Below are positions 48,702 to 64,000 of a stretch of 64,000 nucleotides of DNA, in pieces. The notes under the pieces were generated by a model. The model saw nothing but the letters and a program-made list of their open reading frames with translations. It made no database searches and had not been told where the DNA came from. The stretch comes from Sphingobacterium puteale. GTDB lineage: Bacteria > Bacteroidota > Bacteroidia > Sphingobacteriales > Sphingobacteriaceae. The stretch's first letter is position 1. Every line of letters starts with the position of its first letter. The position numbers were made by a program, and so were the translations under genes. The DNA lies in the NCBI RefSeq assembly GCF_003627955.1, contig NZ_RBWS01000006.1, positions 310,001 to 374,000 of the forward strand, written 5' to 3'.

Positions 48702-49349
48702 ATGAGAAAACATTCGTATATAACACTTCTTTTTATCGCCGCGGTCGGTAGCCTCCGTGCGCAAACGGTGACAACAAAATTGGTTCCGATACATTTAGCT
48801 GCAAGTTTTGACCGTGTAAAAGAAGCTATTCCAGATATTTCCGACCAGTTGCTGGATAGTAAAATGCTGATCAGACCCTTAGCGAGTACAGATACTACGG
48901 CGAGTTTTGAAATTGAAGAACAGGGGATAAGCATTGAAACTCTTGTTGATAATGAAAAAGAATATAACAAATTGGTCTCAGCAGCAGCAAATGACGTTTC
49001 CAAACCAAGTATTCATATATTGTATCATTATACTTTAAAGGATAAAAAATCAAGAGTGAAGCCACCAAGAAAAATCTTTTTCTTTCCTGAGTATGGGGTA
49101 ATCTGGACGTTGACCGTACGAAAAATAGCAGAAAAGGAAACGAAGATTGTACTTGAGTATAAATCGCTGGCGTCCGCATTTGCGGAAAAAATTGAAAGCG
49201 AATTTAAAGGCGATCATTATTACAACAACAAAATGGTGAAAATTGCGGTCAATGACAAGCGAATGCGTACCCTAATCGAGCAGATTTTGATTAATCAAAT
49301 GCATGTCGACAGGGATTATCCCGCACCGACATATCCAGCGCGCAATTAG
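48702..49349 (+). CDS. Hypothetical secreted protein
   Basis: The protein has 215 residues. The N-terminus MRKHSYITLLFIAAVGSLRA is a signal peptide with cleavage before QTV. The rest is soluble, mixed alpha/beta, with a PPRKIFFFPEYGVIWTLTVRKI strand pair and a C-terminal PAPTYPARN tail. No family is recognised. It is probably periplasmic and precedes two other small envelope proteins. Confidence 0.7.
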   Translation: MRKHSYITLLFIAAVGSLRAQTVTTKLVPIHLAASFDRVKEAIPDISDQLLDSKMLIRPLASTDTTASFEIEEQGISIETLVDNEKEYNKLVSAAANDVSKPSIHILYHYTLKDKKSRVKPPRKIFFFPEYGVIWTLTVRKIAEKETKIVLEYKSLASAFAEKIESEFKGDHYYNNKMVKIAVNDKRMRTLIEQILINQMHVDRDYPAPTYPARN

Positions 49350-49496
49350 TTATCTGTTTGGTTTGAATTTCGGAAAGTAAACAGAGATTTTAGAGATTTT
49401 TTTCCTGCGCTCAGGGCCGCCCTGAAGCTCATATAGTGAGAGTCGGGCAAGCGAGCAGATGTTCGTCTATGTAGCATGGGACCATTTAAATAAAAC

Positions 49497-50237
49497 ATGA
49501 TGAAAATATTTTGGAAGATCGTTCAATGTTTGGTGCTTGTCGGCTTCATGATTGTCTTTGTTTTTGTAATGAATAGCTACCGCTATTTGATCTATGCGCT
49601 AATGGGCGCTTTTGCGCTCTATTTTCCGTTGAGAAAAATAATTATTGGCAAATTAAGCAATCTGGATGGCAGCAGGAAAGCCCAATATGAAGTCAACGGT
49701 AGACCCGTTAATATGCAAATGAGTAAGCTTAGTGCCTTTGTCGTTTTGTTGGTCCTTATTTATGTTATTATCGTTACCGTCTTTTCCATGAGTCCGTATT
49801 TGGAGCGGAAAGAGTTTAGCGTGACGCATTCAAGCTGGGTAGCGGTAACACCGTCCATCCTGAAATTTGTGTGTGAATTTCAGGGCGGGCGGACCAAATA
49901 CGCATATCTCGATCTGGAATACCAGTTTACCGCCGATGGACAGTCCTATGGAAAAAAGATTGTTAAGGCCGAAAAGCTGTATTCATTTTTCCCAATTTGG
50001 GGAAAGCGGGGCCCTGAACAAATGCAGATTGAACTGTTAAATAGGGTAACCCAAAAAAATATAGCGAAAGAGCCCGTCTTGTATTATAACCCAAATGATC
50101 CGACGCAGCACAAGTTTTTTTTGGCGAACGATCGCTTTTATCCGCAGGGAGTAATGCTATATAATTTATTGTTTGTGTTTTCCATTGTATTTTTAATCAT
50201 TGTACTTACAGCTGTTTTGTTTAATATAAAACTATAG
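49497..50237 (+). CDS. DUF3592-like membrane protein
   Basis: The protein has 246 residues with membrane helices at about 8-28, 30-46, 77-97 and 221-243. The soluble loop (about 98-218) contains LDLEYQFTADGQSYGKKIVKAEK and VLYYNPNDPTQHKFF, which is the DUF3592 pattern. The function is unknown. ATG 49497 and 49500 are equally plausible starts. It is followed 23 bases later by a secreted protein. Confidence 0.75.
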   Translation: MMKIFWKIVQCLVLVGFMIVFVFVMNSYRYLIYALMGAFALYFPLRKIIIGKLSNLDGSRKAQYEVNGRPVNMQMSKLSAFVVLLVLIYVIIVTVFSMSPYLERKEFSVTHSSWVAVTPSILKFVCEFQGGRTKYAYLDLEYQFTADGQSYGKKIVKAEKLYSFFPIWGKRGPEQMQIELLNRVTQKNIAKEPVLYYNPNDPTQHKFFLANDRFYPQGVMLYNLLFVFSIVFLIIVLTAVLFNIKL

Positions 50238-50260
50238 TATAAAAATCAAATCATCTAGCC

Positions 50261-50842
50261 ATGAAAAAAAACTTGTTATTACTTGCAATTTTTCCGCTTA
50301 TAATATGCAACGGGCAAAGTAAGTCCCCAGTAAATGGATTTGTAAACAGCGTAGACCTGAAGGGAAAGGTTTGGCATGTCGGCAAAAGCCATGGGATAGA
50401 TGAGCCTGGCGGAATAATATTTTCCACTGACATCTATTTATATTTTCTGGATAAAGACCGTATTCAAATGACCTATTCCCAATATACGCCAAGCGTTGGT
50501 TTTCATAGCATAACGACAAATGGAATTTATTTTATTGAACGGAAAAACGAAGTTTCTATCATCATTTTAGAATCAAAAGAGGCATTGGACCGGAGTAAAG
50601 TTACAATAGGCGAGCACGAAGTGCAGCTTTTTTTATACGCAATGAATCGGCTCCGAAATCCCGATGAACCAGCAGTCGACATAATGACATTGCCAGAAAT
50701 AAAAACGTATCGTTTTACCGTCACCAATTATTTGCCAAATGGAGATTTTAGGACTGAGCTTAACCTATTCGACGAAAGGCAGGTGACTTATCCTTTCGGA
50801 ATTTACACTTTTGATGGCAATAAAACTGTAAAACAACCATAA
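50261..50842 (+). CDS. Hypothetical secreted protein
   Basis: The protein has 193 residues. MKKNLLLLAIFPLIICNGQ is a signal peptide; the Cys at 16 could serve as a lipoprotein cysteine. The mature part is beta-rich (WHVGKSHGID, DIYLYFLDKDRIQMTYSQYTP) and is not recognised. It probably shares transcription with the DUF3592-like gene. Confidence 0.7.
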   Translation: MKKNLLLLAIFPLIICNGQSKSPVNGFVNSVDLKGKVWHVGKSHGIDEPGGIIFSTDIYLYFLDKDRIQMTYSQYTPSVGFHSITTNGIYFIERKNEVSIIILESKEALDRSKVTIGEHEVQLFLYAMNRLRNPDEPAVDIMTLPEIKTYRFTVTNYLPNGDFRTELNLFDERQVTYPFGIYTFDGNKTVKQP

Positions 50843-50990
50843 TAAGCTATTCCGTTATTTATCGTTCAAATTATCCATCCCTAATTAAAATCCTCCGATT
50901 CGCTCATCTACAAGCTTTATTCGCTCAGTTTTAGCTGAATATATCCTAAAAAAAGAGTAGATTTAATAGAATTAATTTAATGGGCCAATT

Positions 50991-51722
50991 ATGATTCGAG
51001 CAATAATAATTGATGACGAAGTGAAAGGAAGCACGTTACTTCATCATAAGCTGAAAGATTTTGCCGAAGACCTGACCGTTACGCATATTTTTAACGATCC
51101 AGTCCTTGCGTTGCGGGAGCTTGTGGCGCTCCAACCTGATGTGGTTTTTTTGGATGTCGAAATGCCCGTAATGGATGGATTTCAGTTGTTGGAGAATATC
51201 GGACAATTTGAATTTGAGATTATTTTTGTCACAGCCTATCAGGTATATACGTTAGAGGCACTACGTGCTAATGCGTTGGATTTTTTATTAAAACCCGTTG
51301 ACCCCGAGGAGTTAAGCTGCGCCGTCCGCAAACTCAAATATAAGATCCTAAATAAAAGAAAGCTCGCTTCAAGTTTGACCCATCGCGGTACCGATCACAT
51401 GAAAATTTCACTGCCAACCATTGAAGGTATCTATTTTGTCAAAAAAAGCGATATCATCAAGGTCGAAGCCATGAGCAATTACTCTGTATTCTACCAAGTG
51501 AACGGAACCAAAATAATTGTCTCTAAAACGCTCAAAGAGTATGAACCATTGCTGGAAATGGACAGCTTTATACGAGTAAACCGAAGTGTTATAGTCAACC
51601 TGGACTATGTATTGCGTTACAAAAAAGGGGATGGTGGAACATTGGAGCTCGAAGATGGTTCTGAAATTGAGGTCTCCTCTTCTAAAAAAAGCCTGGTCAT
51701 CGAAAGGTTGATAGGTCATTAA
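50991..51722 (+). CDS. LytTR family response regulator
   Basis: The protein has 243 residues. The receiver has Asp8/Asp9, Asp55 in FLDVEMPVMDGF, and LLKPVD. The LytTR domain (about 135-240) has VKKSDIIKVEAMSNYSVFYQ and FIRVNRSVIVNLDYVL. It lies 9 bases before the propeller histidine kinase, its cognate sensor. The nearest candidate target is the collagen-like/barrel/TANFOR operon just downstream. Confidence 0.92.
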   Translation: MIRAIIIDDEVKGSTLLHHKLKDFAEDLTVTHIFNDPVLALRELVALQPDVVFLDVEMPVMDGFQLLENIGQFEFEIIFVTAYQVYTLEALRANALDFLLKPVDPEELSCAVRKLKYKILNKRKLASSLTHRGTDHMKISLPTIEGIYFVKKSDIIKVEAMSNYSVFYQVNGTKIIVSKTLKEYEPLLEMDSFIRVNRSVIVNLDYVLRYKKGDGGTLELEDGSEIEVSSSKKSLVIERLIGH

Positions 51723-51731
51723 ATTGATATT

Positions 51732-54700
51732 ATGAGATTGAGGTTCTTTATATTTTGCTGGTCAATTGCCTTAATGCTGCTATCTACTTCCAGGGCGCAA
51801 CATAGAACCTATAATCTCATTCATTTTTCAGCTGAATCGGGCCTCCCGAGCAACGAGGTACGTGGACTGGCAACTGACGCACAGGGGATCGTGTGGATAT
51901 CGACCAATAAAGGGCTGGCTTTTTACGATGGCAAACAGATACATCATATCCCATTTAATCAATTAGGTTTGGGCTTTACCAATGACCTGGGGAAGATTGC
52001 TATCGACGCTCATGGACGTATATGGATGGCAACTGATAATCAGGGGCTATTGTGCTACGATAAACGTAAGCCCCTGGACAAATCAATTACATACTATCCG
52101 GTGCGGCTGGATCAATCCATTCTTAAAAATGAATTGTATGAGGTCTTTGCCAGTAAATCGGGCTTGATTTATTTTGGAGGGCAAGAGATGGACCTACAGG
52201 TTTTGGATCCCAATACCCAAAAGATAAAACGGGTTGTATTTCCCTTAAGTAAAAAAGATGGTGCTCTGAACATCTACTGCATTAGAGAAGATAGTCGTGG
52301 CATACTTTGGATCGGAACGCGCTACGAGGGGTTCTTTAGTTATGATCCCCGCAGTGGCAGTATAAAAAACTTCAATCTGAATCAGCCAGATGAAAATGCG
52401 GTCTCCAGCTTTGTCTTTCGAAAAAACGAAATCTATAGTATGTACTATGATCATGATCTGGTCAAGTATATGCCTAAGAACGGCTCGTTAAAGGCTAACT
52501 TGCTTGGCGAACAAAAATGCAAAGAATTTTATGATAATGCCTATCCAGCAATGATTTTTGACCCCAACCGGGATGAGATCATTGCCGGGCATGTGTCCAA
52601 AGGGATCACGGTGTATAAACCTGAGACGGGACAGCAGCAGCAGATAAAATGGAGCGAATTATGTCCCAAATGCGAATTGCCCATCAAAGTAAATGTCATG
52701 CTCAAGACGAACAATGGATACTGGTTGGGTACTACGAATGGTCTTTTTTGGTATGAAGAGTCGATGAACAAGGTCAATCAGCTGGTTCCAGCTGATAAGG
52801 AACCCATTATCGATGTTTTTAAAATAGGAAACAACCTTTGGTATAGGACGGCATATAATTTTGGTCTATTGAGTACCGATCTCAAGAAAAAGCTATCCAC
52901 TTTCTCTTTAAACGGTATAAAAATGAGTCAAATCAATGTAATTGATGGGGTTATCTATTTTTCGAGCTTCTATAATGGATTATTTTATTTTGACACCGCA
53001 CAAAAACAGGCGATTCGCCCACTAAAAATCATAGGTAATAAATTCGGTTTTGATTTTGGCGACTGCAATACTGTGTTAAAAGATACCATTGATAGCAAGC
53101 TGTTTTTATGGATCGGTACTTGGAATAATGGATTATATAGATATGATCTGTCCAATAAAACGATAGTACGTTACGACAAGAGCAAAGGTTTGCCGAGCAA
53201 TAAAATTGTAAATATGGGGCGGGATAACGACCAATCCATTTGGCTGGGGATGGATGGACATGGACTCATCCAATTACTGGATAAGAAAAAATTTCGCTGG
53301 CGCCAGTTTGTCCAATTGAAAGAACATGGAGGCTTGCCTTCTAATAAGGTGATTGCTTTTTCACCGGGCCATCGGGATACGCTATGGTGCAGTACCGGCG
53401 CCAGTGGACTGAGTGCAATCACAAAAAAAAATAATACCGTATTTATTCAATATTATCCGGATAAAAATGACTTTCCACACAATTTTGTCAATGACATTAA
53501 ACGGGATCAATTAGGACGACTGTGGTTACGTAGCAACGATGGATTGATGGTTTTTGATCCCAGTACAAAGTCTTTTGTTCAGTTGGCTCATGGAAAGGGG
53601 ATAATCCCTCCATTACCAGTCAAGACTTACGCCGTCTCGCTGGTCGATAATGATTTGATCTTCTGTACCTCAAATGGCCTTTTGCGGACGGGTTTAAAAA
53701 ACCTGAATTTTAAATCCGCAGTTTTGGAAAAACCGCTGTTCAGTAAATTTCACATTGCAAACAAGGATTATAGCCATTTGTTATTTCATGGTCCAACAGT
53801 AGAGCTTCGACCCGAGGAAAATAGTTTTGCTATAGATATTTCCCATCCTGACGCCGCCTTACGGGAATATATTTTTGCCTACCGTCTGAAAGATGTAGAT
53901 CCGGACTGGGTGGTTGGCAAAGAAGATCCGCAAGCTGTATACAACAATTTGCCCGGCGGAAATTATATCTTCGAAGCTAAACTGGGAGATAAATATGGAC
54001 AATGGTCCCCCGAAATCGCAAGGCTCAATATTCAGCTGCAGTCGAAATGGTTTGAGACAGTATGGTTTAAGACCTTGGTACTTTTGACAGGTATTGGTAT
54101 CGTCATTGGTGTATTTTTGTTTCGACTGCGCCAACAGAAAAAGATCAATGAGATCCAATTGGCTTATACCGACCGATTACAAGATGAATTGGCTGCCAAC
54201 GAAAGAAAAATCAAGGAACAGGCAAAGATCCTGGAAATTGAAAAGGAGGAGAAGCTGGAAGCTGATTTTAGAAAGAAATTAATCGAAAGTGAGCTGAAAG
54301 CGATCCGTTCACAGATGAACCCCCATTTTATTTTCAACGTATTTAATTCTATCGAAGCCTATGTCATTGAAAACGATTCAAAAAGTGCCAGCCACCTGAT
54401 TCATAAATTTGCGACCCTGAGCAGGATTGTGTTGGAAAATTCCAGATCTTCTTTGGTGAAGATCAGCTCTGAGCTTCATCTGATCAAATTGTATCTGGAA
54501 CTGGAGCAAGACCGTTTTGCGTATAGCTTTTCATTTGAGATACATGTCGATCCGCATTTGGATATTCATGACAAGAAAATACCCTCTATGCTGATTCAAC
54601 CCCTGATAGAAAATGCCGTCCACCATGGTATCCGACACTTGGTGGACCGTCGGGGTAAAATCCGGATAAACTTGATGCAAACTCCAACATCTATACAGAT

Positions 54701-54932
54701 CGAAGTTTTGGATAATGGTGTTGGCTTTGACCAGGCACAACAGACAAAACACCAAAACTTCAAAACCACTTCTTTTGGTTTAAAAGGGGTACACGACCGG
54801 CTGAGTCTACTTAATGATAAATCGTCAGATCGCACAGCGCTATTGACCGTAACTTCTTTACCCCAGGAGCATGAATTTAGTACCATGATCAGTATTTCCC
54901 TACCTGTCATTCGCTTGAACCAGGAAGATTGA
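51732..54932 (+). CDS. Two-component propeller sensor histidine kinase
   Basis: The protein has 1066 residues. A signal peptide (about 1-23) precedes repeated propeller blades with GIVWISTNKGLAFYD, GRIWMATDNQGLL and GILWIGTRYEGFF motifs (to about 680). A Y_Y_Y domain follows (about 690-765), then one membrane helix (about 775-797) and a coiled coil. The His_kinase domain has His865 in SQMNPHFIFNVFNSIEAYV and the HATPase has QPLIENAVHHGI. Such kinases sense periplasmic polymers or cell-surface states in Bacteroidota. The ligand is unknown. Confidence 0.93.
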   Translation: MRLRFFIFCWSIALMLLSTSRAQHRTYNLIHFSAESGLPSNEVRGLATDAQGIVWISTNKGLAFYDGKQIHHIPFNQLGLGFTNDLGKIAIDAHGRIWMATDNQGLLCYDKRKPLDKSITYYPVRLDQSILKNELYEVFASKSGLIYFGGQEMDLQVLDPNTQKIKRVVFPLSKKDGALNIYCIREDSRGILWIGTRYEGFFSYDPRSGSIKNFNLNQPDENAVSSFVFRKNEIYSMYYDHDLVKYMPKNGSLKANLLGEQKCKEFYDNAYPAMIFDPNRDEIIAGHVSKGITVYKPETGQQQQIKWSELCPKCELPIKVNVMLKTNNGYWLGTTNGLFWYEESMNKVNQLVPADKEPIIDVFKIGNNLWYRTAYNFGLLSTDLKKKLSTFSLNGIKMSQINVIDGVIYFSSFYNGLFYFDTAQKQAIRPLKIIGNKFGFDFGDCNTVLKDTIDSKLFLWIGTWNNGLYRYDLSNKTIVRYDKSKGLPSNKIVNMGRDNDQSIWLGMDGHGLIQLLDKKKFRWRQFVQLKEHGGLPSNKVIAFSPGHRDTLWCSTGASGLSAITKKNNTVFIQYYPDKNDFPHNFVNDIKRDQLGRLWLRSNDGLMVFDPSTKSFVQLAHGKGIIPPLPVKTYAVSLVDNDLIFCTSNGLLRTGLKNLNFKSAVLEKPLFSKFHIANKDYSHLLFHGPTVELRPEENSFAIDISHPDAALREYIFAYRLKDVDPDWVVGKEDPQAVYNNLPGGNYIFEAKLGDKYGQWSPEIARLNIQLQSKWFETVWFKTLVLLTGIGIVIGVFLFRLRQQKKINEIQLAYTDRLQDELAANERKIKEQAKILEIEKEEKLEADFRKKLIESELKAIRSQMNPHFIFNVFNSIEAYVIENDSKSASHLIHKFATLSRIVLENSRSSLVKISSELHLIKLYLELEQDRFAYSFSFEIHVDPHLDIHDKKIPSMLIQPLIENAVHHGIRHLVDRRGKIRINLMQTPTSIQIEVLDNGVGFDQAQQTKHQNFKTTSFGLKGVHDRLSLLNDKSSDRTALLTVTSLPQEHEFSTMISISLPVIRLNQED

Positions 54933-55132
54933 TATGCTACATAGCAATTCTGCGTAATTTTTGATGAATAATTTCTCAGCTTTTGCTCAAAAAGAAACCC
55001 TCTTCACTCATTTTAAAACGCTGTTCACTCATTCTCTAAAAATCTTGTGAATTAAATTATTCTATTTGTTTGGGTATTACAGTGGGATTAGCCCCAAGTC
55101 TACACCAATTAAGAACTATAATTTAATCAGAT

Positions 55133-56695
55133 ATGAAAACGCTATCAGTTCATCGTTTTTTTCTAGTCAATTTGATATTCGCCTTTTTGTTTGCCTGCAC
55201 CAAAGAGGGCGATGTTGGTCCACAAGGCCTGGAAGGCTTAAGTGGCACAAAGATTTATACGGGTAATGCCGTTCCTGATGTAAAGCTCGGAATAGCCGGT
55301 GACTTTTATTTCCAACTGACGAATAGTGATTTTTACGGTCCGAAAACAACAACAGGATGGGGGGATCCTGTCAACCTTCGTGGCGCCACAGGTGCTGTTG
55401 GTGCTACAGGTGCTACTGGATCAACAGGTGCTCCCGGAACCCCGGGTTCTAAAATACTAAATGGCAGCACCGCCCCGGCCAGTACGCTTGGGCAGATCGG
55501 TGATTATTACCTCAATCGGAGCACGACCGATTTATATGGTCCCAAAACTGCGTCAGGTTGGGGGATAGCCCTTAATCTTAAGGGGGCCAATGGCACCAAA
55601 ATCTATAATGGATCCATAGCCCCAGCGGCGAGTTTGGGCCTCAATGGCGATTATTATTTCCGCACCACCACAGGGCAGCTATACGGCCCCAAAACGGATG
55701 CTGGATGGGGTATGCCAATTAGTCTGATCGGCGCCAAAGGTGCAGATGGTACTGATGGAACAAATGGAGCTACAATCCTTGCGGGTACATCTGTCCCAGA
55801 TGCGGGAATCGGCAAGCTGGGCGATTTTTACTTTCGCAACAATACAGGTGATTTCTACGGTCCAAAAACGGCTAATGGCTGGGGCAATGCCACCAGTCTC
55901 AAAGGGACAAATGGCCTAAATGGCGCGCCAGGATCGCAGATCTTGAGTGGTATTGCTGTGCCAGCAATGTCATTGGGCCGAATCGGCGATTTTTACTTCC
56001 GCACCAGTACCAGTGATTTCTATGGACCAAAGACAGCGACAACCTGGGGTATGCCTGTTAATTTAAAGGGTGCCACGGGTGCTGCGGGATCGAATGGAAC
56101 AAATGGTTCGCCAGGATCCAAAATTCATAATGGTTATGGCAGCCCACAGGATACGCTCGGAAGGGCAGGTGATTATTACATCAGTATTGCTACTGGAAAC
56201 TTGTATGGTCCCAAAACCACCAGCGGCTGGGGCGGTCCCATCCTAAATTTAAGAGGTCCGGCAGGGGCACAGACGGATGTCATCTACAGTGAATGGCGAA
56301 AGCTCAATAATGTGTACCAATCACCAAGTTCAGGAAATATCAGCGGCGACCTTTTTGTCGCAGAATTTAAGGACAATCCCAAGCTCCTTGACGAAGCTGC
56401 GATACTGGTCTATGTACGGGAGGATGCCGGCGAGAAAGGATCATTTATCAGCCAGCTCAATTGCACGGGCCGTCTTTACAATTGGGTTGATTACGGTTTT
56501 TCTCTGGATCAAGTCAACGCATTGATCAGAATCTTTATGACAAATACGGCATTCGATATCAGCGAAAAGGAGGTGGAGAGCAATCTACAATTCCGTTTTG
56601 TGATCATTCCGGGTAACAAAAATGCGTACGGACTGGCCAAAGCATTGCCCAAGGATTATAATCAACTCAAAGTCATGTATAAGATCGCTGATTAG
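55133..56695 (+). CDS. Collagen-like modular lipoprotein
   Basis: The protein has 520 residues. The lipobox LIFAFLFAC puts the lipidated Cys at 22. Six copies of a 47-48-residue module (pattern G-x-I-n-G-n-P-n-LG-n-GD(F/Y)Y-n-(L/F)YGPKT-n-WG-n-L-x-G) fill about residues 38-380. They are separated by 2 to about 20 residues of collagen-like G-x-x triplets. A non-repetitive C-terminal domain of about 140 residues follows. It is probably a surface-exposed fibre-like lipoprotein. First gene of a tight operon: one base separates it from the barrel gene. Confidence 0.85.
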   Translation: MKTLSVHRFFLVNLIFAFLFACTKEGDVGPQGLEGLSGTKIYTGNAVPDVKLGIAGDFYFQLTNSDFYGPKTTTGWGDPVNLRGATGAVGATGATGSTGAPGTPGSKILNGSTAPASTLGQIGDYYLNRSTTDLYGPKTASGWGIALNLKGANGTKIYNGSIAPAASLGLNGDYYFRTTTGQLYGPKTDAGWGMPISLIGAKGADGTDGTNGATILAGTSVPDAGIGKLGDFYFRNNTGDFYGPKTANGWGNATSLKGTNGLNGAPGSQILSGIAVPAMSLGRIGDFYFRTSTSDFYGPKTATTWGMPVNLKGATGAAGSNGTNGSPGSKIHNGYGSPQDTLGRAGDYYISIATGNLYGPKTTSGWGGPILNLRGPAGAQTDVIYSEWRKLNNVYQSPSSGNISGDLFVAEFKDNPKLLDEAAILVYVREDAGEKGSFISQLNCTGRLYNWVDYGFSLDQVNALIRIFMTNTAFDISEKEVESNLQFRFVIIPGNKNAYGLAKALPKDYNQLKVMYKIAD

Positions 56696-56696
56696 C

Positions 56697-58409
56697 ATGA
56701 AAACTATTGTCCATTTCGCAGTCGTTGTGTGTTGCTTGGGGATTCTCGGGAGCTTAAAGAGCCAGGAGCTAAGCACCATCGCCAAACAGAAACCTTTTCG
56801 GTTTGATGGAAATCTGGAATTTCGAAGCATGTTTTACCATGCATCAGGTATTGCCAACCGTATGGAGCCGCTGAACTATCTGATCAGTGGCAGTCCGACG
56901 ATTTCGTTATATGGATGGAGTATTCCATTTAGCTTCACCTTGAGCAAAAAGCAGAGTTCCTTCCAACAGCCTTTTAACCAATTCGGTCTCAGTCCGACCT
57001 ATAAATGGGTGACGCTACATGCCGGCTACCGCAACGTCACTTTTTCGCCCTACACCTTAGCCGGACATACCATTTTGGGGGGCGGTGTGGAACTGAACCC
57101 GGGCAAATTGCGTTTTGGCTTGATGTACGGGCGCTTAAACCGGGCTACGGTCATTGATACAGCATCCATGTCTCTGGTACCTTATTCCTTCACCCGTAAA
57201 GGATTGGCCGTAAAGCTAGGCTATGGTACCAGTGCAAATTTCTTTGACCTAAACCTGCTCCACGCCAAAGATGATAGCAGTTCGGTAGCGGATCTGATTC
57301 CCAATGCTGTTCGGAAAGTGACACCAGCAGCCAATACTGTCCTGGGCTATGGAACACGCTTTACACTTTTTAAACAGCTTTATATTGAAAGTGACGGTGC
57401 GGTAAGTTTGCTCACCCGTGACATCAACTCGACCCTGTCCTTAGACTCCATAAGCGATAAGACACTCCGAAAGCTCGGTAGACTATTGGACATCAATGGG
57501 ACTTCTGAATGGTTTTTGGCATTTAACGCAGGTATTGGCTATCAGGCCAAAAACTATGGGCTGAAAGTAAACTATCGTCGTGTGGAGCCCGGATTTACCT
57601 CGATGGGCGCCTATTACTTTACCAACGATGTTGAAAATCTGACTATCATGCCCAACTATAGTCACCCTTCGGGCAGATTTCGCTTGAATGGAAGCCTAGG
57701 AATAGAGCAGGACAATGTACGCTTGCAAAAAGAAGCAACCTCCAAACGTGTCATCGGTACAGCGATGGTAACAGCCGAACTGACAAAACAGCTCGGCATT
57801 GATCTTAACTTTAGTAATTTTTCCAATAATCAGAAACCCAATACGTTGCGCTTTGCGGATTCTCTTAAAATTGTGCAGACCACCAGAACCCTGGGGATCA
57901 TGCCTCGATTCACCATCTCGAGCCCGAAAAGGGTGCAGATGATCTTGCTGTCGATTAATTTCAATAGCATGAATGACTACAACAGCTATTTTGACGCAAA
58001 TAATTCTCCCAGTAGGGATATCAACTCGGGTCAATACCTGCTCAACTATACTTTGTCCTTGCCACTGGAGAAATTAAGTTTCAATGCCAGCCTGAGCTAT
58101 ACTAATCTAAAATCGACGGGCAATAAAAATAGTTATAGGGGAGTATCGGGCGGAGCTACCTACTTGATGGCCAACAATAAACTCAGCGCAGGCACTAACC
58201 TAAGTTACCTCAAGGGAAACAGCAATGGCGCAAAAAGCGATATCTTCAACGGCTCGCTCAATTTATCTTATGCCATTAACAAACTGCAAAGTATCCGGGC
58301 AATGGTCTACTTTACCAATAACAATCCCGGTTCGGCCGTGACGGGCGTAAACCCTTCATTCTCGGAGACCCGGGGCGAAATTGCTTACCAATTGAATTTT
58401 GGATTATGA
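56697..58409 (+). CDS. Predicted outer-membrane beta-barrel protein
   Basis: The protein has 570 residues from ATG 56697, one base after the previous stop. A signal peptide (about 1-23, ending GSLKSQ) is followed by many alternating amphipathic strands with aromatic girdles, for example FTLSKKQSSFQQPFNQFGLSP and YNSYFDANNSPSRDI. It ends GEIAYQLNFGL, with a hydrophobic/aromatic outer-membrane C-terminal strand. It has no TonB box or plug domain. It may anchor or export its operon partners. The stop overlaps the next ATG (ATGA). Confidence 0.8.
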   Translation: MKTIVHFAVVVCCLGILGSLKSQELSTIAKQKPFRFDGNLEFRSMFYHASGIANRMEPLNYLISGSPTISLYGWSIPFSFTLSKKQSSFQQPFNQFGLSPTYKWVTLHAGYRNVTFSPYTLAGHTILGGGVELNPGKLRFGLMYGRLNRATVIDTASMSLVPYSFTRKGLAVKLGYGTSANFFDLNLLHAKDDSSSVADLIPNAVRKVTPAANTVLGYGTRFTLFKQLYIESDGAVSLLTRDINSTLSLDSISDKTLRKLGRLLDINGTSEWFLAFNAGIGYQAKNYGLKVNYRRVEPGFTSMGAYYFTNDVENLTIMPNYSHPSGRFRLNGSLGIEQDNVRLQKEATSKRVIGTAMVTAELTKQLGIDLNFSNFSNNQKPNTLRFADSLKIVQTTRTLGIMPRFTISSPKRVQMILLSINFNSMNDYNSYFDANNSPSRDINSGQYLLNYTLSLPLEKLSFNASLSYTNLKSTGNKNSYRGVSGGATYLMANNKLSAGTNLSYLKGNSNGAKSDIFNGSLNLSYAINKLQSIRAMVYFTNNNPGSAVTGVNPSFSETRGEIAYQLNFGL

Positions 58410-61400
58410 AATCGATCGCATCTATCAGACGAAATGTGTTGATCCTATTGGGATGTTTGCTGCTATGTGGTATGGCCCAGGCGCAGATACAGATCACATC
58501 GCACGTGTTGCCTCCTTATCTGAACCGTATTGCAGACTATTCCTCGCGGCCCGAACTGATGGTGGTGACCGTGACCAATACGTCTACAGTGGAGCTGTCC
58601 ATACAGCTCACCGCAAGGGTAACTGGAGATAATGGGATTTCGGCCTGGGTAAAACCGGGCTATCGTAGCCCACGCCCAATTATTATCGGCGCGGGACAGA
58701 CCGTCAATCTAAATGGAAATGACATTGCTGCCCTATTTGATATTAACAAAATTGACTATACGGGTATCAGCCGTGCAGATATGAATCGCGGGGTCGGCCT
58801 GTTAGAAGGTAACTATACGCTCTGTATCCGTGCTTTACAGTATAATACACTGGAACCGATCAGCCCAGAGCAACCATTGGGTTGTACGAGCTTCCGAATT
58901 TCGGATCTGGAGCCACCACGTATTATTAGCCCGTTTAACGAACAACGGGTCGACGTCAAAGGGGTACAGGCGCTTCCTATTACCTGGACTACGCCGCCGG
59001 GATCTTCGCCGTTTATCCAATACAAGCTACGCATTGTCGAGGTTATCGTCCCACGTAACGCAAATGATGCCTTTTTGTCCAGCAGACCTTTATTTGAGGA
59101 AACATTAACGTCAAATATGCTGTTGTATGGTCCTGCGCACCCTGCTCTTATCCCAGGAAGGCAATATGTCATGGGCGTGCAGGCCAGTGATCCAACGGGA
59201 AAATCAACGTTTCGAAACCGGGGCTGGTCTGAAGTGACCTCCTTTATGTATACGGGAAATATGATTGCCGCGCCCCAGATCGTGAGTCCGGAAAATCAAA
59301 GTGTTTTTAAGGGCGAAGGACAGTTTAAAGTGGTCTGGAACCCCATCGTCAACGCTGCGCCAACAACATCGTATACCGTTAATTTTTATACCACCGCCCC
59401 AAATAAATACACTAAGCAAAACGATGCCGCACGGCCGATGTATACGACCAAGATCGTCGGAAAAAATGAGCTACTCTACGATTTTGTGAAGATGCCAGTC
59501 CTTAAAAAAGGAGAACGCTATCAGGTACAAGTCATTGCCAGTGATCCCACAGGGCAACAAATATTTGAAAACCAAGGCAAGAGTATCCCCGTAGATTTTG
59601 TCTTTGATGCCAAAATACACCGCGATACAACCATGATCAAAGGAAGATTGGCCTACCAATTTAAGGATGATCCTAAAGGACATGTTTTCCCGGTTGCCAA
59701 TCAAAAAGTTTATCTCTCAAAAGTATATGCCCGGGTTGCTCAAGATAGCAGTGGTGTGGTGCAAAAAACAGAACTTACAGGTAATATTGCCAACTTCTTC
59801 AATCAGGAAGATGTTTTCGGAGGACAGTATGTGACGACTGATAAAGATGGAAATTTTGAAATACCTTGTTTCTTTTCGTCCCAAGATAGCAGTGGTCTGA
59901 TACCTGAGGACAAATGGTCTGCCAATATAGGGAATCAGACTGCTGTGATGCCTGCCAGTATACGTTACTATCTGGAAAACATGAAAGGCAAAGTAGGCCT
60001 GTATTATAAAGTCGCGGTGCTCAATCCGCATTTTAAAGCGAGCAATGAATTGTTTTCTTTCAAATCGGGTGGCGAACAAAATGTCAACCAGATCACATTA
60101 GATGCCAATGCATATAGCCTAAAAGTCAATGTGCGAGAGATCTTCAATAACCTCAAGGGTGATTATGTTGAAAATGCCAAGATCAAAATCTATCGGCAAA
60201 AGGCGAATAAAGAAAATCCAAGCTATGGAATTCCTCGCTATGAAGGTGATCTCTTGAGCGACAAGGACTACGAGGAGGCAATCCAGGGGGATAAGATCTT
60301 GATTGCCGAACGTACAACTCCACAATTGAGCGATAAGAAAAACGGCAATGACGCATATGTGACCATCAATTCGCTGTTCAGAAATTTGCCTTCAGACAGT
60401 TATAATTATAAGATTGTCTTACTGGATGGAAGCACTGTATTGCGGGAAGTCTCTTACGGTACGATTGCAGAAGGACTTCATGTCAGCCAAAATCAGCTCA
60501 ATAACAATCTTAAGCTGAATAATATAGATATGGTCAGTTATAGCAATGGAAAGTCTTTTACAAATGCTTTAAATTCAGATGAAGTAGCGACAGCAAAGGT
60601 AAAAACTGCGGCCGGAAACAGCCTCAAAGGATCCAGCAAACAAGGCAGTGCGATGGCCACCATGCCCGGAAATATCGCGGCGGCTAAGCCGGGAATTAAT
60701 CTTGGAAGCAATACAGCCAAAGGCGGTTCACTTTATGGAAATGGAATCACAAAAAATATCCTCAGCAAGGACAAATGGGCAGATTATCGGTACAACGACC
60801 GTTCGGACGAGGCTTTGCTGACACTGGAAAAGGAATTAGCTGTGGCCCCGCGCACCAAATTGACCGGCAATTTAAAATATGCATATAAGAATCGCTCAGG
60901 CTTACCAAAACAGCCTTATGCAAATATGCCGTTAAAACTGGTGGTCACCTATGATTTTGTAGAATCGAAATCTACTGTTAACAATTCAACGACCACCGCT
61001 GGCGTACAAGGGCTATTATCTCCAATAGGAAACTATTACAGCAGTGTGAATACACAGTTGGCCAGCTTTGGGTATGGAAATTTTGCCAAAACCGAAGTCG
61101 TCGATAAGGGAACATCCATTTATGGTGGCGGCAATAGTGTACAGGACAACTATAAAGTATTACAAACGGTCATGACGGATCAAGATGGAAACTTTGAGTT
61201 TGATTTTCCAAATGCGGATATGGCCGGACAATTTGTTGAGGGCACGCTCACAAGGGGCAATGGAGACCTGTTAAGTAGCCGGGAGGGCAAATTTAGACGA
61301 GTCTTCCGGTTAGTGCCTGATGTCGCTTACTATTGCGCGCCAGATGAAGCCATTGTGATACAGCCTTGGGAAAGCAAAGATATAGGATCCTATACTTCTT

Positions 61401-64000
61401 TTGTAAAAACCCAAAATATTCGAGTGTTGGTTGAACGTGTCGATCGGGCAGAGCAACCGCAAACTGCAACTGCTTTTGCCCAGGTGCCAGTCAATCTTTA
61501 TTTTGACCTGAGCAATAAAGACCATCGTTATATGCCAAGTATTCCGGGGCTGGACAGAAACACCAAAAAGAATATCAATACTGCGACACCCAATTCGGGC
61601 TACAATAACTCTGCGGCGCCACTGGCTTCGGCAGCCTCGGTGATAGCTATCAATCAGCTCGCCACGAGCTACACGGCTAATATCGGCGCCAACTATTCAG
61701 GGCAGTCGCTCAATAATGGTGTTGTGGCTGCCTCAAGCAACCCATCCCTAGATAATCGCTATCAGCATGTACTGATGCGCGAGGGTGATCTCAGTAACAA
61801 TGATGGTTACATTGAGTTTAAAGATGTGCTTCGCCCGGCTACCAGGGATGCCGCTGGCACATTGAGCTACATTTTGGAAGCAGATGATCGGGGCCGCGAA
61901 AATAATGCCGCCTTTTATAAGGACTATTTCCTGGGTAAAACACATGTATGGACCAACCGTAGGGTAGCCGCTGATGGACCTCAGGGTATTGAAGGTTTTA
62001 TACCCGGGTCTGAGATTTTGTTTAACAAGGATTTTAACCCGGATGATGTGGTTAACTATAAATTCAGGCTGGTTCCTAAGTCAACATTGATCCGGGGCCG
62101 GGTAACCGACGACTTTACCACCTTGGGGGTTAAGGGTGTACAGGTCAAAGCAAGCGTGATTTTAAATGGAAAATCGTATAATAACCAGCGTTATAATTTC
62201 CTTTTTGAGGAAGTGACCAGCACCGACGATAATGGTTACTATTCATTCCCCACATTAGAAAAACGGATCGAATCTTTCAACCCGGAAACCATCAATTCAG
62301 GAACGGTCTCAACTCAGACAGCCAATCTGGTCAAAATACTGTATGCGCCGGGATACGAAAAACAGCAGGTGGACATCGGCGCTCTTGAGCCAGGATTGTC
62401 GGGGCGCCAGATTGTGCGCAACTTTGCCATTAAACCGCTGGGAAGAGGCTCTTATGGTTATGTCATGGATGCCGAGAATAACGCTCCTGTTACCGCAAGG
62501 GTCAAGCTGAAAATGAATGGAAGATGGGTGGATACGGAAGGTGCCGCAAGCAGGAAATCCGTTGGGGCAACGTTGAATCAGGCCTCAAGTCAATTTGCCC
62601 TGAACAATTTTCAAACCTTGGTCAATCAGGCTGTACGCGATAAAAAAGAAATATCGTTTGGGACCAGCGGCAGCAAGATCCAATCATCCCAAAATGGAAA
62701 AGGCGAAGTCACCACCACGCTATTTATCACAAGTAAGGCAGATCTGAATGCCGGAATTGTGGCTGCGGCCACACAGTCCAAATCAAAATTTGGAAACCGG
62801 GTCAATTTTATTTACTCGGGAACAGCAAAGGGCGGCAATACACTGATCGCTCCGGATGTCAGCAAAGAAATTCAGTCTCTTGGTTCTGTTGGGCCACAAT
62901 TGGTTATGCCATATCAGCGTTTTGAAATAGATCTTCCAACGCGACCTGACTCCATCATGATCTTGCCTTATGATCCTGCTTATATGCCGAGAACTGTGGC
63001 TGTATTCGCTCAGGAACCTCATACGGATCTAGGGGATTTCAAGCTGACCCGCAGAAAACACCGCATCAACATTGTCGTCAAGACCAGCGATGGTGCGCGG
63101 GTGACTAATGCCAAGGTGTTTATTGAAGGTGCCGGTGATGATTTCAAACGAACGAATATCCAGGGCGAGGCGCGGTTTGAATTTGTCAATAATTCGAAGA
63201 CTAATTTCAACGTATTTGTAACCAATGACATTGCAAAATATAGCCCTAAGGGCAAGGACAATAATCCAGATGAACTTGGTGGAATCGGTCCACAGGGGAC
63301 CATTGCTTTTATGCCTACCAGTCTCAACAATGTCAATAGTGAAGATGATCAGGTCCTTCGTACAGTGGTCGTCGAAGTGGAGCGGGCCAATCTTCTCCAC
63401 GGTAAAGTCAGCTTAGCAGCAGATGGAACGGCGCTTCAAGGAGCACGTGTCTATCTGGAACAGGGGGCAGGTGCGAACTCCGAAAGTGAGACCGAGACCG
63501 ATGTTAATGGTAAATATTCCATGTTGGTTCCGCAGCTAAAATCGGTAAGTCGATCGATAACAGGTAATTCGCTGAAAATCAAGGTGACGGCCAGTTACCA
63601 TGCGCAAAGCCGCACTTTTGTTGGCGAGAGCAAATCGATCAGCATTCCAAAAGATAGCAAGGAGCAACAGCTGGATTTTCAAATAGATGAACTCCGCGAT
63701 ATTGACATCAGTCAGTTATATGGATTTAACGTTCGAATCAATAAGTTGGAGCAACAGAACGATGGGGGATATCTCGTTTCTGGTAACCTGGTCGACCTGC
63801 CGTTAAACTCAGACTTCAGAGGCGATAAGTTTGCCGGTCAGGAGCCGAACCTAACGTTTAAAAATATCGTCCTTAAGAAATCAGGCTTTGTCAATAATCG
63901 CCAGATAGCGAAAGCGGTGCCGGTAGCAGAAAGCATTGACCTGTTGGAAAAAAATATCCGGGTGGCTGCATTTTCGTCATTCAAAGCACAACTACTGGGT
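58406..64000 (+). CDS. TANFOR-type giant surface protein, 3' end outside window
   Basis: The frame is open from ATG 58406 to the window end, giving at least 1865 codons. A signal peptide (about 1-27, ending GMAQAQ) precedes an N-terminal region with SHVLPPYLNRIADY, VTGDNGISAWV and EGNYTLCIRAL segments that match the TANFOR domain first described in Tannerella. Fibronectin-III-like segments follow (about 170-400). At least four carboxypeptidase-regulatory/MSCRAMM-like modules then begin near residues 408, 816, 1226 and 1665, each with a DxDGNF-type turn. It is probably a long surface or periplasmic fibre partnered with the barrel and lipoprotein. Confidence 0.88.
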   Translation, partial: MKSIASIRRNVLILLGCLLLCGMAQAQIQITSHVLPPYLNRIADYSSRPELMVVTVTNTSTVELSIQLTARVTGDNGISAWVKPGYRSPRPIIIGAGQTVNLNGNDIAALFDINKIDYTGISRADMNRGVGLLEGNYTLCIRALQYNTLEPISPEQPLGCTSFRISDLEPPRIISPFNEQRVDVKGVQALPITWTTPPGSSPFIQYKLRIVEVIVPRNANDAFLSSRPLFEETLTSNMLLYGPAHPALIPGRQYVMGVQASDPTGKSTFRNRGWSEVTSFMYTGNMIAAPQIVSPENQSVFKGEGQFKVVWNPIVNAAPTTSYTVNFYTTAPNKYTKQNDAARPMYTTKIVGKNELLYDFVKMPVLKKGERYQVQVIASDPTGQQIFENQGKSIPVDFVFDAKIHRDTTMIKGRLAYQFKDDPKGHVFPVANQKVYLSKVYARVAQDSSGVVQKTELTGNIANFFNQEDVFGGQYVTTDKDGNFEIPCFFSSQDSSGLIPEDKWSANIGNQTAVMPASIRYYLENMKGKVGLYYKVAVLNPHFKASNELFSFKSGGEQNVNQITLDANAYSLKVNVREIFNNLKGDYVENAKIKIYRQKANKENPSYGIPRYEGDLLSDKDYEEAIQGDKILIAERTTPQLSDKKNGNDAYVTINSLFRNLPSDSYNYKIVLLDGSTVLREVSYGTIAEGLHVSQNQLNNNLKLNNIDMVSYSNGKSFTNALNSDEVATAKVKTAAGNSLKGSSKQGSAMATMPGNIAAAKPGINLGSNTAKGGSLYGNGITKNILSKDKWADYRYNDRSDEALLTLEKELAVAPRTKLTGNLKYAYKNRSGLPKQPYANMPLKLVVTYDFVESKSTVNNSTTTAGVQGLLSPIGNYYSSVNTQLASFGYGNFAKTEVVDKGTSIYGGGNSVQDNYKVLQTVMTDQDGNFEFDFPNADMAGQFVEGTLTRGNGDLLSSREGKFRRVFRLVPDVAYYCAPDEAIVIQPWESKDIGSYTSFVKTQNIRVLVERVDRAEQPQTATAFAQVPVNLYFDLSNKDHRYMPSIPGLDRNTKKNINTATPNSGYNNSAAPLASAASVIAINQLATSYTANIGANYSGQSLNNGVVAASSNPSLDNRYQHVLMREGDLSNNDGYIEFKDVLRPATRDAAGTLSYILEADDRGRENNAAFYKDYFLGKTHVWTNRRVAADGPQGIEGFIPGSEILFNKDFNPDDVVNYKFRLVPKSTLIRGRVTDDFTTLGVKGVQVKASVILNGKSYNNQRYNFLFEEVTSTDDNGYYSFPTLEKRIESFNPETINSGTVSTQTANLVKILYAPGYEKQQVDIGALEPGLSGRQIVRNFAIKPLGRGSYGYVMDAENNAPVTARVKLKMNGRWVDTEGAASRKSVGATLNQASSQFALNNFQTLVNQAVRDKKEISFGTSGSKIQSSQNGKGEVTTTLFITSKADLNAGIVAAATQSKSKFGNRVNFIYSGTAKGGNTLIAPDVSKEIQSLGSVGPQLVMPYQRFEIDLPTRPDSIMILPYDPAYMPRTVAVFAQEPHTDLGDFKLTRRKHRINIVVKTSDGARVTNAKVFIEGAGDDFKRTNIQGEARFEFVNNSKTNFNVFVTNDIAKYSPKGKDNNPDELGGIGPQGTIAFMPTSLNNVNSEDDQVLRTVVVEVERANLLHGKVSLAADGTALQGARVYLEQGAGANSESETETDVNGKYSMLVPQLKSVSRSITGNSLKIKVTASYHAQSRTFVGESKSISIPKDSKEQQLDFQIDELRDIDISQLYGFNVRINKLEQQNDGGYLVSGNLVDLPLNSDFRGDKFAGQEPNLTFKNIVLKKSGFVNNRQIAKAVPVAESIDLLEKNIRVAAFSSFKAQLLG

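Follow-up and report, generated by a model that had tools for sequence, protein, structure and literature searches.

A barrel-linked TANFOR operon in Sphingobacterium puteale appears to combine two nearly independent evolutionary modules

Results

A 64,000-nucleotide stretch of the Sphingobacterium puteale genome (assembly GCF_003627955.1, contig NZ_RBWS01000006.1, positions 310,001 to 374,000; hereafter the window) ends in an operon that encodes a collagen-like lipoprotein, an outer-membrane beta-barrel and a giant protein with an N-terminal TANFOR domain, followed just past the window by a secreted Fn3 repeat protein. The contig that contains the window is 432,670 bases long and belongs to a genome of 6.72 Mb, and the nearest named relative locus is that of Sphingobacterium athyrii, whose barrel is 90% identical. 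On the forward strand, the lipoprotein gene (520 residues, 55133..56695) is separated by a 1-base gap from the ATG of the barrel gene (570 residues, 56697..58409), and the barrel stop codon overlaps the ATG of the giant gene in a 4-base ATGA at 58406-58409. The giant gene (58406..64000, forward strand) is cut by the window at residue 1,865; read on to its end at G000:C44:376520 (G000 denotes this genome), it encodes 2,704 residues. The Fn3 protein gene begins 11 bp further downstream (G000:C44:376532-378502) and encodes 656 residues with a signal peptide and Fn3-like repeats; since the gene after it lies on the opposite strand, the operon consists of four genes. Upstream, also on the forward strand, are genes for a LytTR response regulator (243 residues, 50991..51722; Pfam Response_reg and LytTR) and a sensor histidine kinase (1,066 residues, 51732..54932; signal peptide, Reg_prop propeller, Y_Y_Y, His_kinase and HATPase), with a 200-bp gap between the kinase and lipoprotein genes. 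The original prediction, made from the window's sequence, had described the gap, the overlap and the propeller kinase with its regulator as they are found here.

To place the operon among its relatives, a profile of the barrel (A1) was searched against GTDB species genomes, yielding 210 relatives, of which the best 80 loci were read. All 80 have a giant with the same N-terminus directly after the barrel, so the linkage is not due to chance, and at each of the 73 loci with enough sequence the giant is in turn followed by an Fn3 protein homologue. The loci are spread over Sphingobacteriales, Cytophagales, Bacteroidales and Saprospirales. The collagen-like lipoprotein gene is present at 29 of the 80, and only four (L056, L058, L059 and L089) have the regulator and kinase in the window's arrangement. 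The expectation that lipoprotein, barrel and giant act as a unit together with the neighbouring regulator pair was thus borne out in part: there is a conserved unit, but its core is barrel, giant and Fn3 protein rather than lipoprotein, barrel and giant, and both the lipoprotein and the adjacent regulator pair are confined to certain lineages, with unlinked regulator orthologues elsewhere. Because the 80 loci had been picked by their barrel, the test was repeated in reverse, starting from the giant. Of 395 Bacteroidota genomes, 93 have a match to its N-terminal profile, and in the sample of the 30 best loci picked in this way (own genome included) the barrel stands directly upstream at 20. Six loci (L075, L085, L091, L092, L095 and L100) carry an extra small secreted open reading frame (ORF) of 174-208 residues between the giant and Fn3 genes; all six belong to a second body class. 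At four others (L052, L053, L054 and L055) the gene after a divergent barrel encodes only a TANFOR-like protein of about 300 residues, which stands alone and has no body.

Residues 26-152 of the giant match TIGR02542 (TANFOR) with an E-value of 9.8e-8 at 28-32 bits, under the NCBI cut-off of 67, and the same model is matched by all 40 aligned relative giants (best 1.6e-37). Judged by these profile matches, the N-terminus is a TANFOR domain, a known module of polymorphic toxins. The barrel is supported by its AlphaFold model, and the lipoprotein keeps a lipobox-like N-terminus (...C-TKEG/SETG) at most of its 29 relative loci.

The giant is divided at a fixed point. Giants that are 60-85% identical over their first 285 residues can lack any similarity beyond, even when they come from two loci of one genome (L070 and L071). 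In all seven pairs profiled, identity drops from 60-100% to background level in the same place, near residue 285, at the end of the TANFOR and Fn3 region. Within the window, the conserved N-terminal module (signal peptide, TANFOR and Fn3, to about residue 285) occupies 58406..59260 and appears to evolve with the barrel, and the exchangeable body, which begins at 59261 and continues beyond the window's end at 64000, appears to evolve with the downstream Fn3 gene. We compared 327 pairs whose giant N-termini are at least 50% identical: where the body had been exchanged, the relative score of the Fn3 partner had a median of 0.06 and a maximum of 0.14, where it had been kept the score was at least 0.21, and barrel similarity was about equal in the two cases. 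Over 2,628 pairs, similarities correlate (Spearman) at 0.75 between giant N-terminus and barrel and at 0.73 between body and Fn3 partner, but at only 0.10-0.16 across modules, and none of 499 label permutations reached the partial correlations. By these comparisons there are two nearly independent modules, one made up of the barrel and giant residues 1-285, the other of the giant body and its Fn3 partner. The break and the module-wise similarity are most simply explained if two fits have to be preserved, that of the TANFOR region to the barrel and that of the body to the Fn3 protein; co-evolution with the barrel and the swapping of bodies, along with the Fn3 protein, from species to species suggest a system for delivering or displaying interchangeable cargo.

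The barrel matches no Pfam or NCBIfam family, and other members of its group show scattered weak matches there, mostly to generic barrel models. Its AlphaFold model (predicted local distance difference test, pLDDT, 78; predicted template-modelling score, pTM, 0.62) contains 23 strands of at least 10 residues plus shorter ones, and as modelled the barrel probably has 24 strands. A structure search returned many barrels at similar Z, with only the FimD/PapC-type ushers and MtrB, large barrels of 24-26 strands, aligning weakly over nearly the full length (TM-score at most 0.46, 9-12% identity); the operon has no usher plug, chaperone genes or cytochromes, and we do not claim homology to either group, as many barrels match equally well and none specifically. 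Membership in PorP/SprF was likewise rejected (hhalign probability 3% for PF11751; no match among 53 members scanned). Sequence searches of the PDB with profiles of the barrel, the giant N-terminus and the giant C-terminus found no relative, and neither barrel nor giant matched an Omp85/POTRA barrel or haemagglutinin-type two-partner secretion (TPS) domain family in Pfam or NCBIfam, in library scans without profile comparison. The literature searched, including PMC7073777, contains no description of the barrel.

Scans of the last 400 residues of 66 relative giants against Pfam and NCBIfam found no recognised toxin domain, leaving room for a toxin of unrecognised type, and no type A or type B C-terminal sorting domain (CTD) of the type IX secretion system (T9SS); the toxin label is not confirmed for this body-type family. 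A model of the C-terminal 960 residues of the S. athyrii orthologue (pLDDT 74, pTM 0.49) forms a long beta-sheet structure, whose best Foldseek matches (LptD and, lower down, apolipoprotein B) have TM-scores of at most 0.12; the last 250 residues align to porin-like sheets with a VIA-align Z of about 10, which may reflect the antiparallel sheet alone. At Flavobacteriaceae-like loci (L183-L188), a divergent form of the same barrel occurs with small genes downstream and no Fn3 gene, and two of these loci have weak matches to toxin-like tails (TNT-like, 5e-4, at L184; AHH-like, 0.006, at L186). Toxin-type and body-type TANFOR proteins thus appear to share one barrel family. Separately, the barrel-linked TANFOR proteins of L047 and L048 share a 56% identical end of 170 residues on different bodies, with no Pfam match, as is usual for the tips of polymorphic toxins, and the C-termini of the L185 and L187 giants, also with no Pfam match, carry an E-x-K motif (CEFKSW, YEYKSY) that recalls the PD-(D/E)xK BaCT nuclease.

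Expression of the operon may be controlled from next door. A LytTR-type direct-repeat array (54982..55033, forward strand) lies upstream of the lipoprotein ATG and consists of a perfect pair, TTCACTCATT-N11-TTCACTCATT, at 55003-55033 and of one more half-site, a weaker one, 21 bp upstream at 54982; another repeat, TTCGCTCATC-N11-TTCGCTCAGT (50899..50929, forward strand), lies 92 bp before the regulator ATG. Genome-wide (6.7 Mb, up to 3 mismatches) there are five matches to the site and none to a reversed control: three are the operon and regulator sites, one, with 2 mismatches, stands before a further collagen-like lipoprotein gene (L149, G000:C36 near 327537) that is apparently broken into two overlapping ORFs, and the fifth is unexplained. 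Among the 80 relative operons, 18 are preceded by the repeat at 15 or more of 20 positions, all in Sphingobacteriales genera or relatives grouped with them and including loci with no adjacent regulator. As the 15/20 threshold was chosen after the motif had been seen, and the best of ten other spacings gives 14 loci at 15, the weight rests on the strong sites (at least 17, at a conserved position). The repeat also recurs before the regulator gene in S. athyrii (L056, 18/20) and S. faecale (L059, 16/20) and before unlinked regulator orthologues (L204 and L207, 18/20; L208, 17/20). Seven of eight genomes searched have a single close regulator orthologue, and in five of the eight one is near the operon.

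LytTR sites typically comprise two repeats of 9-11 nucleotides with spacers of 11-13 (PMC4847170), a rule that the conserved 10-nucleotide repeats and 11-nucleotide spacer here follow at the level of sequence, and a receiver-LytTR regulator beside a LytS/His_kinase-type sensor corresponds to the definition of a LytTR two-component system. The layout resembles that of LytS/LytTR systems such as Escherichia coli YpdA/YpdB (LytTR regulator, 10-bp direct repeats, 11-bp spacer; PMC4847170), but the sensor here is a periplasmic-type two-component propeller and the site sequence is another. The presence of the site at both the operon and the regulator gene, its rarity elsewhere and the pattern of orthologues support a dedicated sensor and regulator for the operon, as the original prediction had supposed.

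Propeller kinases are frequent regulators of sugar-utilisation loci; the operon contains no SusC/SusD or sugar-enzyme genes, and we set that reading aside. The lipoprotein itself has short GXY runs alternating with non-collagen repeats of about 50 residues; it scores 16 bits against Pfam Collagen (cut-off 27) and 31-52 bits, also under the cut-offs, against NCBIfam collagen-like adhesin models, and the literature searched yielded no account of it. Upstream of the regulator, window positions 48702-50842 hold three secreted or membrane hypothetical genes whose only family match is a weak one to DUF3592.

Discussion

We favour, with modest confidence, the interpretation that the operon encodes a two-module envelope system in which exchangeable passengers are displayed or secreted with the help of the barrel. 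The first module would be the outer-membrane barrel with giant residues 1-285 (TANFOR-Fn3) as its dedicated docking partner, and the second the passenger body with the secreted Fn3 protein as its own dedicated partner. Made with a Sec signal, the giant would engage the barrel through its TANFOR region and would either be retained at the outer membrane or pass across it, which would place the body on the outside for the Fn3 protein to bind; species would swap body and Fn3 partner as a single cassette while keeping the barrel and TANFOR region. At the Flavobacteriaceae-like loci the passenger would instead be a toxin-like tail. In S. puteale the operon further includes the gene for a collagen-like surface lipoprotein, and the adjacent propeller kinase and LytTR regulator would switch the operon on through the 21-bp direct-repeat site, with the regulator also controlling its own gene. 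Gene order and its conservation, the module structure, the lack of known toxin and CTD domains, the missing SprA and the conserved sites are what the sequences show; we infer the contact between barrel and TANFOR region, export or display, binding of the Fn3 protein to the body, activation by the regulator, and a role in antagonism, adhesion or a surface layer.

Several points weigh against this interpretation. Roughly one in three of the best TANFOR loci lacks a recognisable barrel upstream, and the barrel is therefore not universal; some of these TANFOR genes stand behind SprB- or CTD-type proteins, the arrangement of Jana et al. (PMC7073777). The model of the barrel is of moderate confidence and has no specific known fold. 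The correlations are pairwise, not tree-based, and inflated by shared ancestry. Finally, S. puteale keeps GldM and one short CTD protein, and most T9SS-bearing relatives could still use the T9SS. More tentatively still, the barrel may be the first representative of an outer-membrane route for secretion or display in Bacteroidota that does not depend on the T9SS, a two-partner system in which a large barrel of about 24 strands recognises the TANFOR region and presents exchangeable passengers, toxins elsewhere and here giant bodies with their Fn3 partner.

TANFOR proteins have been hypothesised to be T9SS substrates (PMC7073777), and the giant could be one, with the barrel keeping it on the surface as a shuttle or anchor of the PorP/SprF kind. 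SprB and CTD genes are enriched around TANFOR genes and a T9SS is present in most genomes that have TANFOR (PMC7073777), SprB and SprF are a known case of a giant adhesin with its cognate barrel (PMC9143113), and SprA is found in 23 of the 24 barrel-bearing genomes of a first check. We nevertheless consider this unlikely, because none of the 66 giant C-termini has a CTD, the barrel is unrelated to PorP/SprF and has about 24 strands rather than 14, and three species keep the operon without SprA. SprA is absent from S. puteale by PF14349 and TIGR04189, and two different models also fail to find it in S. athyrii (G439) and S. phlebotomi (G443). All three species keep GldM and hence a partial T9SS. 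The S. puteale genome is a draft, but it is 99.94% complete and the absence recurs in other species, which makes a T9SS route for the giant unlikely in SprA-less species and favours the barrel as exporter or anchor; judged by gene content, the published T9SS idea does not fit these species. Compared with SprB-SprF and other pairs of type B CTD proteins and PorP-like barrels (PMC9143113, PMC12618676), the operon shares a giant surface-type protein beside a cognate barrel, but it lacks the CTD, its barrel is larger, and the pairing would involve the N-terminal region of the giant instead of the C-terminal one.

Alternatively, the system could be a polymorphic toxin whose body ends in an unrecognised antibacterial toxin, with the Fn3 gene or another neighbour conferring immunity. 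TANFOR proteins were reported in 2020 as polymorphic toxins, some of them proven (Jana, Salomon and Bosis, PMC7073777), the bodies are polymorphic behind a conserved N-terminus, and TNT-like and AHH-like tails occur at loci with the same barrel. Yet the exchanged unit is about 1,800-2,400 residues and not a tip of 100-300, its partner is a secreted Fn3 protein of 500-750 residues and not a small immunity protein, no toxin domain appears in the 66 C-termini, and the giant C-terminus is modelled as a long beta-sheet structure; we regard this, too, as improbable. We give slightly less credence to a structural surface system in which giants, Fn3 protein and collagen-like lipoprotein form an adhesive or protective layer or fibres that vary under phage or predator pressure, since the beta-rich tandem modules, collagen-like lipoproteins in two lineages, lack of a toxin domain and body diversity like that of surface antigens are offset by the absence of any known S-layer or fibre protein among the fold matches.

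In two-partner secretion (FHA/FhaC) and in CdiB/CdiA, adjacent genes encode a cognate barrel and a huge polymorphic passenger with an N-terminal targeting domain. Two-partner secretion and contact-dependent inhibition provide only a working analogy for the barrel-giant pair, which belongs to another phylum and has another barrel. Among the closest known systems are the TANFOR polymorphic toxins (PMC7073777; TIGR02542), with which the giant shares an N-terminal TANFOR domain, Fn3, a signal peptide, large size, occurrence in Bacteroidota and a conserved N-terminus before a variable remainder (here with the break near residue 285). It differs in having no recognisable toxin and a host without SprA, a gene for a secreted 656-residue Fn3 protein downstream rather than a small immunity gene, a dedicated barrel directly upstream that is absent from PMC7073777, and the exchange of the whole body together with the Fn3 gene. 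The system is therefore not undescribed in the full sense of the original prediction, as TANFOR proteins have been known since 2020, although the barrel partner and the exchange of body and Fn3 protein are not mentioned there. The operon is best described as a barrel-paired form of the TANFOR class with no recognisable toxin tail, whose module structure and dedicated regulator we did not find described in the literature searched.

The T9SS is the only published hypothesis that we found for how TANFOR proteins, a class with proven antibacterial toxins among its members, leave the cell. A barrel that stands directly upstream of most sampled TANFOR genes, appears to evolve with their N-terminus and is retained in species without SprA offers a specific alternative that can be tested. 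That bodies of about 2,000 residues are exchanged along with the partner gene, with the break at a set position inside one protein, may show which parts must fit one another, and the putative dedicated LytTR site would make the inducing signal of the propeller kinase accessible to experiment.

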